From: Gordonia shandongensis DSM 45094
Lineage (GTDB): Bacteria; Actinomycetota; Actinomycetes; Mycobacteriales; Mycobacteriaceae
Length of the DNA stretch: 64,000 nt
Direction of reading: 5' to 3'
Assembly: GCF_000423025.1 (NCBI RefSeq)
Contig: NZ_AUHE01000012.1
Coordinates: 1 to 64,000, forward strand
Every line of letters starts with the position of its first letter. Position 1 is the stretch's first letter. This document shows, piece after piece, positions 35,351 to 36,294 of the stretch. The notes under the pieces were generated by a model. The model worked only from the letters and a program-made list of their open reading frames with translations, was not told the DNA's origin and made no database searches. Position numbers and translations under genes: made by a program.

Positions 35351-35370
35351 TATACCCCCAGGGGTATAGT
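35351..35370. promoter_or_regulatory. CsoR-type operator overlapping its -10 box
   Basis: TATACCCC-CA-GGGGTATA (35351-35368) is a perfect 8-bp inverted repeat of the G-tract type bound by CsoR/CstR repressors. The -10 TATAGT (35365-35370) overlaps its right arm, so binding would block transcription of the repressor, DUF302 and Cys-rich genes. Confidence 0.88.
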
Positions 35371-35407
35371 CGGGGAAGTACCGGAAGACGAGCGAAAGGG
35401 CACTCCG

Positions 35408-35665
35408 GTGACAACGGACCCGGCACGCACGGCGATCGTGAACAGACTGCGCCGCGCCCACGGCCAGCTGGCGGGAGTCATCGCGATGATCGAAGACGAA
35501 CGCGACTGCCACGAGGTGGTCACGCAACTGGCCGCCGTGTCGAAGGCGCTCGATCGCGCGGGATTCAAGATCATCGCGACCAACCTGCGCTCCTGCCTCA
35601 CCGACCCCGACGGCGACGGCCCCGACGCGGAGTCGCTGGAGAAGCTCTTCCTCTCCCTCGCCTGA
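35408..35665 (+). CDS. CsoR-family repressor with altered metal site (possibly persulfide-sensing)
   Basis: 85-residue all-helical repressor ([22 protein letters not shown]). Copper-sensing CsoR proteins use a Cys-His-Cys site; here the equivalents are Cys34, Asn59 and Cys63, so the His is missing, and the second-shell Tyr after the first Cys is His35. Two Cys without the His is the pattern of the CstR branch, which reacts with sulfane sulfur. AAAGGG precedes GTG 35408. The operator sits in its promoter, and no copper ATPase or chaperone is nearby. Copper or another metal is not excluded. Confidence 0.85.
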
Positions 35666-35715
35666 ACCACCTCGCACCACCGCCCCACACCACCCACCCG
35701 AAAGGAGACGAGGCC

Positions 35716-36114
35716 GTGAACCTCGCCATCGCCACCACCATCGACGCCCCGCTCCCCGAAGCCGTCGCACGCACCAGAGAAGCCCTGGCGGACCAGGGGT
35801 TCGGCGTCTTGACCGAGATCGACATGGCCTCGACACTGCGGACGAAGATCGGCGCCGAGATCGAGGACTACGTGATCCTCGGCGCCTGCAACCCGACCCT
35901 GGCCCACCGAGCCGTGACCGCCGACCGCCAGATCGGCCTGCTGCTGCCGTGTAACGTCGTCGTCCGCACCGACGTCGAGCGACCAGAACGGAGCATCGTC
36001 GAAGCCATGAATCCGGCCCTGATGGTGACCGTCACCGACGACCCGGCGCTGGCCCCCGTCGCCGACGAAGCCACCACCCTGCTCACCGCCGCCATCGAGT
36101 CGCTGCACGCGTGA
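35716..36114 (+). CDS. DUF302 protein
   Basis: 132-residue DUF302 domain protein. Typical stretches: ALADQGFGVLTEIDMASTL, ILGACNPTLAHRAV, GLLLPCNVVVR and EAMNPALMV. Two Cys (GACNP and LPCNV) fall in conserved segments. The biochemical role of the family is unknown; it is often found with CsoR-type regulators and sulfur genes (my recollection). AAGGAG (35702-35707) precedes GTG 35716. It follows the repressor by 50 bases, in the same transcription unit. Confidence 0.85.
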   Translation: MNLAIATTIDAPLPEAVARTREALADQGFGVLTEIDMASTLRTKIGAEIEDYVILGACNPTLAHRAVTADRQIGLLLPCNVVVRTDVERPERSIVEAMNPALMVTVTDDPALAPVADEATTLLTAAIESLHA

Positions 36115-36156
36115 GCGACCGCGACCACGACCGCGACCACGAAGGAGAACCTCGGC

Positions 36157-36294
36157 ATGTGTTTCCCCGTCACCTGCTCCGCCTGCGGAAAGACCACCTG
36201 GGACGGCTGCGGTGAGCACGTCGACCAGGTCATGGACCAGGTTCCGGCCGACCAGCGGTGCACCTGTCCCGACACGCGACTCGCCGACGCCTGA
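36157..36294 (+). CDS. 45-residue Cys-rich protein (putative zinc or thiol protein)
   Basis: Short gene with GAAGGAG (36141-36147) ahead of ATG 36157. The product has seven Cys in 45 residues: Cys2, the pair CSAC (7, 10), WDGCGEHVDQVM (18), and CTC near the end (35, 37). The pattern suggests a small zinc knuckle or redox protein. I recall similar small proteins, with CGKxxWxGCGxH in the middle, across bacteria and eukaryotes, without known function. It is 42 bases after DUF302 and likely part of the repressor's operon. Confidence 0.75.
   Translation: MCFPVTCSACGKTTWDGCGEHVDQVMDQVPADQRCTCPDTRLADA

Follow-up and report, generated by a model that had tools for sequence, protein, structure and literature searches.

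The CsoR-family repressor CstR of Staphylococcus aureus has two cysteines. Several related sulfur systems have been described, and we summarize them here from excerpts of the papers cited. ScCsoR of Streptomyces coelicolor is persulfidated at Cys37, and both Cys37 and Cys66 are needed for polysulfide to release it from DNA; its site is ATACCn6GGTAT, and it controls genes for a dioxygenase, a rhodanese and a sulfite transporter, in a circuit that includes SCO0620 (PMC7533328). YrkD of Bacillus licheniformis controls genes for a sulfide:quinone oxidoreductase (SQR), a dioxygenase and a sulfur carrier (PMC9918477). The ‘SUL module’, reported in 2018 from Antarctic Arthrobacter plasmids, comprises a CsoR regulator, a small hypothetical protein, rhodaneses, TauE and a DUF302 protein (PMC6305408), and the suo genes of Synechocystis comprise suoS (an SQR), suoR, suoC and suoT (PMC4307280; PMC5061849), of which suoC is probably, by its position, the DUF302 gene. 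DUF302 proteins are also reported in sox clusters (PMC11034169; PMC5037610). A CstR-like regulator from Thermus did not release its DNA with NaHS, and its authors leave other sulfur species possible (PMC10318464). Among the literature titles listed as matches, mostly outside subscription journals, none looks like functional work on DUF302 controlled by a CsoR-type regulator.

Here we describe a three-gene unit of Gordonia shandongensis DSM 45094 that lies in a stretch of 64,000 nucleotides, hereafter ‘the window’, on contig 11 of a 3.33-Mb genome (Table 1). It encodes a CsoR-family repressor, a DUF302 protein and a very small cysteine-containing protein, and we put at about three in four the chance that it is a minimal reactive-sulfur (persulfide or polysulfide) response operon under a CstR-like repressor. 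The three plus-strand open frames, proposed as a unit in an initial annotation of this DNA, are present as described, the first two matching PF02583 and PF03625, and are separated by 50 bp (repressor to DUF302) and 42 bp (DUF302 to small gene). The repressor scores 82.4 bits against PF02583 (cut-off 22.8, E 3e-23) and 43.1 bits against the RicR model, whose cut-off is 175; the DUF302 protein scores 74.9 bits against PF03625 (cut-off 23, E 4.6e-21). The small protein had been credited with seven cysteines; we count six, at positions 2, 7, 10, 18, 35 and 37. To the left of the unit, on the opposite strand, is purB, named by inspection. The esterase-like gene to the right was considered as a fourth member and dropped: a relative of it occurs in 33 of the 70 Gordonia DUF302 loci examined, many of them short, and its position is thus probably a matter of synteny.

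Table 1. Features of the three-gene unit and its borders, in positions of the window
Feature	Position	Strand	Details
CsoR/DUF156-family repressor, CstR-like	35408..35665	+	85 aa; GTG start; Cys34-Asn59-Cys63; PF02583
DUF302 protein	35716..36114	+	132 aa; PF03625; conserved Cys58 and Cys79
Small Cys protein	36157..36294	+	45 aa; six Cys; below every Pfam/NCBIfam family cut-off
Operator, perfect palindrome TATACCCC-CA-GGGGTATA	35351..35368	.	candidate site; fits ATACC-n6-GGTAT
Possible -10 element TATAGT	35365..35370	+	overlapped by operator; inferred from sequence
Perfect TATAAT	35349..35354	-	overlaps operator edge; palindrome contains most of TATAAT
Esterase-like gene	36347..37297	+	PF00756; right flank of unit

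A perfect CsoR-type operator over the -10 element had been claimed at the outset. The palindrome is indeed there, ending 40 bp before the start codon of the repressor, and the TATAGT -10 element is a reading of the sequence. The palindrome is not a product of chance: base composition predicts 0.0014 occurrences of ATACCC-n4-GGGTAT per 64 kb and 0.07 per 3.33 Mb. A whole-genome pattern scan finds the exact ATACC-n6-GGTAT once, at this unit; allowing one mismatch adds ten places, compared with three for the reversed control; the five of these ten places that were inspected have no recognizable sulfur gene. Given the minus-strand TATAAT at the operator edge, the divergent purB gene may also be affected by the repressor.

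The repressor has Cys34, Asn59 at the His position and Cys63, as first annotated. It therefore lacks the Cys-His-Cys (CHC) site of copper-sensing CsoR, and it shows the combination that marks CstR, two retained cysteines and no His ligand. We compared 126 unique CsoR-family sequences (‘rows’) from 241 loci: the window genome, other Gordonia, best matches from 298 genomes of the order, 80 named genome loci and eight plasmid regions. Plasmid regions opened later stand outside this count. Most of the loci were fetched via DUF302 or the small protein, and so do not form a random sample, and many are only ~3 kb long, which curtails neighbour distances. A contrast set was also used, of 20 Gordonia repressors chosen by hand and unlinked to DUF302, 18 of them CHC and two non-His with MmpL only. 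The ligand triads of the 126 rows are CGC (83), CHC (20), CAC (9), CNC (5), CSC (4) and CIC (2), with three broken or changed, two of which are pieces of one gene; both cysteines are kept in 103 of the 106 non-His rows. The initial annotation laid emphasis on Asn59. The residue is real, and as a special site that marks the class we reject it, since Gly is usual at the His position and CNC accounts for 5 of the 126 rows. The CNC rows of these loci all come from five Gordonia genomes, and it is in these five that the small gene comes immediately after DUF302. In a tree of the family one branch divides His from non-His rows, with support of 90/88, which is below the starred level and rests on few columns; the single presumed CstR in the tree, 7mq1, sits on a very long branch. 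Chains 7mq1/7mq3, filed as CsoR and, we presume, pneumococcal CstR, are also the best solved-structure sequence match of the repressor, and 7mq1 has Asn at the His position.

The reading offered in the initial annotation called for conserved linkage of the three genes, and linkage is what other genomes display. All 59 Gordonia genomes of our set, the window genome included, have a CsoR-family gene; 56 have DUF302 and 38 the small protein. Of the 66 DUF302 places, 60 have a CsoR-family gene no farther than 3.5 kb away and 48 have one no farther than 500 bp, and all three genes are mutually within 3.5 kb in 20 of the 59 genomes. Small-protein places are looser: 21 of 50 have CsoR or DUF302 at 3.5 kb or less, and the other 29 do not. 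Among 298 genomes of the order, DUF302 and the small protein occur together in 48, the small protein alone in 30, DUF302 alone in 41 and neither in 179 (Fisher p 6e-12, genomes being counted as independent despite their kinship), and 30 of the 97 small-protein places in these genomes are within 5 kb of DUF302.

A wider census took the best 80 of 586 small-protein relatives (592 stretches), of which 77 loci were used; genes came from a simple GC-frame caller, and the neighbour clusters were unselected beforehand and named by inspection. Within 4 kb of the small gene the most frequent clusters are CsoR (31), DUF302 (17) and TauE/SafE-like proteins (15), followed by FAD oxidoreductase-rhodanese fusions (‘reductase-rhodanese’, 13), MBL-rhodanese (11) and thioredoxin (11), and, more rarely, by rhodanese (9), MmpL (8) and short-chain dehydrogenase (8). 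Relatives from other loci match, in Pfam, Lactamase_B with rhodanese, Pyr_redox_2 with rhodanese, thioredoxin and the Rv2466c family; the label ‘MBL-rhodanese, dioxygenase-type’ rests on PF00753 plus rhodanese in proteins that fall below every NCBIfam cut-off. In five Gordonia loci a reductase-rhodanese gene stands immediately before the small gene, and in three of the five it is itself preceded by an exact operator, with no repressor seen nearby. One Gordonia locus (L018, 1838-2440) has a gene of the mycothiol-dependent Rv2466c family in the neighbourhood of the unit, and three others have similar genes; over the loci as a whole, Rv2466c-family relatives occur in 18 and MmpL relatives in 40.

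The small protein is defined by the motif MC-x4-C-x2-C-G-K-x2-W-x-G-C-G-x-H. Across 84 aligned rows C2, C7, C10, G17, C18, G19, H21 and C35 are invariant, and in a motif-filtered set of 143, position 37 is either Cys (87) or Gly (56). Known families of small Cys proteins score below their cut-offs (TIGR04129, 15 of 35 bits; PF14116 YyzF, 14.2 of 27 bits), no solved relative is convincing by sequence (best E 0.11), and a fold search with the predicted model, a hairpin and short helix (pLDDT 83.1, pTM 0.56), gives no meaningful structural match (best E 7). The residue pattern leads us to guess that the protein possibly has a Zn-bound CxxC/CGxH core.

Its partner, DUF302, is better furnished with relatives. 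Both Cys58 and Cys79 are conserved in every one of the 89 rows that span them, and an additional row is gapped; the rows were collected with the window protein as query rather than from the whole family. They extend to Thermomicrobium, Mameliella and Synechocystis, and the solved relatives 1j3m and 1q9u likewise have Cys at both positions. In the predicted model (pLDDT 86.7) Cys58 lies at the end of one strand and Cys79 before another. A tandem pair of DUF302 matches occurs in a 352-aa open frame elsewhere (G036:C23:16477-17076). In haloarchaea and Phaeobacter, three loci have DUF302 adjoining copper ATPases or multicopper oxidases, and one of these (L294) has TusA, DsrE and YeeE beside DUF302 as well.

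The operator follows the same division as the ligand residues. Around the 106 non-His rows (4 kb or to the locus end, 655 kb in total) there are 105 exact ATACC-n6-GGTAT sites; 74 rows have one within 4 kb and 32 do not, many loci being shorter. Within 4 kb of the 20 His rows (115 kb) there is none, and shuffled sequence yields 0.0008 sites per kb. All loci together hold 193 sites, overlapping loci being counted twice, and the nearest marker at most 500 bp downstream is most often the small protein, at 60, followed by CsoR at 42, MmpL at 29, MBL-rhodanese at 17 and reductase-rhodanese at 14, with none at 8. Seen from the small gene, 40 of the 101 unique genes with at least 2.5 kb of upstream sequence have an operator no more than 160 bp upstream and 74 have one within 3.5 kb, leaving 27 with none in that range. 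Where no repressor was found within 4.5 kb or to the locus end (n = 54), 22 small genes have the operator no more than 160 bp upstream and 36 within 3.5 kb, and because these have operators and no repressor nearby, the small protein seems to be a member of the regulon in trans as well. Five Gordonia genomes share the compact gene order with the operator 44-57 bp upstream.

The stricter pattern, ATACCC-n4-GGGTAT, has 50 exact sites in 13 of 21 relatives, and is absent from the other 8; the reversed pattern is found 0 times. We opened 20 hand-chosen site regions, mostly away from the known loci. A sulfur or thiol gene follows the site in 13, a methyltransferase in one, and nothing obvious in six. 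By inspection, the genes after the opened sites include those for peroxiredoxin, OsmC-like, SQR-like and YgaP-like membrane proteins and thioredoxin, together with MBL-rhodanese, CsoR, the small protein and rhodanese; six of the proteins were checked with Pfam, by which the SQR-like one is a generic FAD oxidoreductase only. In five Gordonia loci, peroxiredoxin, OsmC-like, SQR-like FAD oxidoreductase and methyltransferase genes come after exact operators, and such genes are possible further members of the sulfur regulon. Conserved linkage, the His/non-His split and an operator common to sulfur and thiol genes lend support, at the level of sequence, to the reactive-sulfur sensing first suggested in the initial annotation.

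The same gene lists can be turned to another use. If the repressor sensed some other thiol stress—electrophiles, aldehydes, hypochlorous acid or mycothiol disulfide stress—and its partners protected thiols generally, then an Rv2466c-family gene in the unit of some Gordonia loci (PF22234 for one, similarity for the others), peroxiredoxin, OsmC-like and methyltransferase genes after the same operator in some relatives, and a window genome without a full-length MBL-rhodanese among the matches listed would all be in keeping. We regard this reading as unlikely: MBL-rhodanese, TauE-like, rhodanese and reductase-rhodanese genes share the neighbourhood, and partly the operator, with the small protein and the repressor, and an actinobacterial system with the same type of operator answers sulfane sulfur, in the excerpts at hand (PMC7533328).

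Could the repressor be a sensor of copper, or of another thiophilic metal, with an altered site, and could DUF302 and the small protein bind the metal? The family name, the CsoR-type operator and the cysteine-rich partner invite the question, and it gains weight from haloarchaeal and Phaeobacter loci in which DUF302 is next to a copper ATPase or multicopper oxidase. Among 17 DUF302 plasmid regions picked by hand from a spread list (flanks of 6 kb for the first seven and 4 kb for the rest), sulfur genes occur in 10 and a metal P-type ATPase or multicopper oxidase in 8, some regions having both. On one actinobacterial plasmid the repressor-DUF302 pair, which lies near metal genes on some such plasmids, adjoins a cation ATPase and a cadmium transporter, and elsewhere it lies near a multicopper oxidase. 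These neighbours, outside Actinobacteria and on some actinobacterial plasmids, make for a mixed picture and weaken the link of DUF302 to sulfur. The repressor itself tells against a metal, for the His ligand is missing. Relatives of CopA or CopZ accompany 17 of the 20 His rows and none of the 106 non-His rows (within 4.5 kb or to the locus end). Two of the remaining His rows have no marker at all and one has the small protein; 103 of the 106 non-His rows are near DUF302, the small protein, MBL-rhodanese or reductase-rhodanese, and three are near none of these. (Two non-His repressors have MmpL as their sole marker neighbour, sulfur markers not being found nearby.) The window genome, moreover, keeps a separate copper-type operon on contig 3, where a CHC CsoR of its own is followed by CopZ-like and CopA-like genes. 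Because of this His/non-His split copper is not our first choice, and we hold a metal sensor to be quite improbable here. It can be a mistake to label actinobacterial CsoR-family genes ‘metal-sensitive’ or ‘copper-sensing’ by default.

Searches with a single query protein per family found no CopA, CopZ, MBL-rhodanese, rhodanese, thioredoxin, TauE or MmpL relative in the window, which bears out the earlier statement that no copper ATPase or chaperone is nearby. In the window genome, neither a full-length MBL-rhodanese, shown by at least 3 of the 59 Gordonia genomes, nor a full-length reductase-rhodanese was found among the matches listed, and an SQR search, run without a positive control, was empty. 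Contig 10 encodes a 232-aa MBL-fold protein that is nearest to the hydroxyacylglutathione hydrolase 2xf4 (E 2.6e-25) and matches dioxygenases such as 5ve3, which we take to be one, and 4chl more weakly, below NCBIfam cut-offs. Given its closer resemblance to hydroxyacylglutathione hydrolases, it is unlikely to be a single-domain dioxygenase; its gene has no exact operator, the genome's only exact site being the one at the unit. DUF302 and the small protein may be the only direct targets of the repressor in this genome. That the unit is the decayed and now unresponsive remnant of a larger sulfur operon, as the absence from the window of the other sulfur genes searched for and the single exact operator in the genome might suggest, is hardly credible when all three frames are open, the repressor and DUF302 each retain both cysteines, the small protein retains its conserved ones, and five Gordonia genomes keep the compact order with the operator 44-57 bp upstream.

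As a reactive-sulfur response operon, the unit would work as follows. The reduced repressor would bind the palindrome over the -10 element and keep its own gene, DUF302 and the small gene off. Sulfane sulfur, which we infer by analogy to be the effector, would modify Cys34, either to a persulfide or to a sulfur bridge with Cys63 of the neighbouring subunit; the modified repressor would release the DNA, and all three proteins would be made. DUF302, with its two conserved cysteines, and the small Cys protein would then accept, carry or buffer sulfane sulfur, our guess being that DUF302 relays or transfers sulfur and that the small protein is a thiol carrier. A bolder proposal, which we advance tentatively and ourselves rather doubt, is that DUF302 and the CGKxxWxGCG protein take up and neutralize sulfane sulfur independently of a dioxygenase, so that the three genes make a complete defence, and that the small protein founds a new actinobacterial family that carries sulfane sulfur. 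Two things are new here: the small protein is delimited as a family and assigned to the regulon, and the unit is a reduced one, in a genome in which no MBL-rhodanese was found. DUF302 is a widespread domain, and the common operator type gives it and the small protein a job that can be tested. The window genome suits such a test well: it has a single exact operator, a single DUF302 gene and a single small-protein gene, and no MBL-rhodanese was found in it.

How does the unit compare with systems already described? The copper repressors CsoR and RicR belong to the same Pfam family as the repressor; the copper type of Gordonia differs in having the His ligand and copper genes nearby. The suo genes resemble the unit in that a DUF302 gene is controlled together with a sulfide:quinone oxidoreductase, and differ, in the excerpts cited, in having an ArsR-type regulator and a chromate-type transporter (PMC4307280). 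The SUL module is alike in bringing together a CsoR regulator, a small-family ORF and DUF302 (PMC6305408). On two Arthrobacter plasmids (MH067971 and MH067977) the small-family ORF lies between the regulator and the MBL gene, and from this position it is probably the small hypothetical protein of the excerpted report (PMC6305408). Unlike the unit, the SUL module, as excerpted, adds a dioxygenase-type gene, two rhodaneses, TauE and an MFS transporter (PMC6305408). With CstR of Staphylococcus aureus and YrkD the repressor shares its two cysteines (PMC9918477, excerpts). The circuit of ScCsoR, so far as the excerpts describe it, differs in its targets: the unit has DUF302 and the small protein, and relatives of the dioxygenase, rhodanese and TauE were not found in the window. 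In the regulator itself the likeness extends to a two-cysteine CsoR-family repressor, an ATACC-n6-GGTAT site near the promoter, self-regulation, and a home in the Actinomycetota (PMC7533328).
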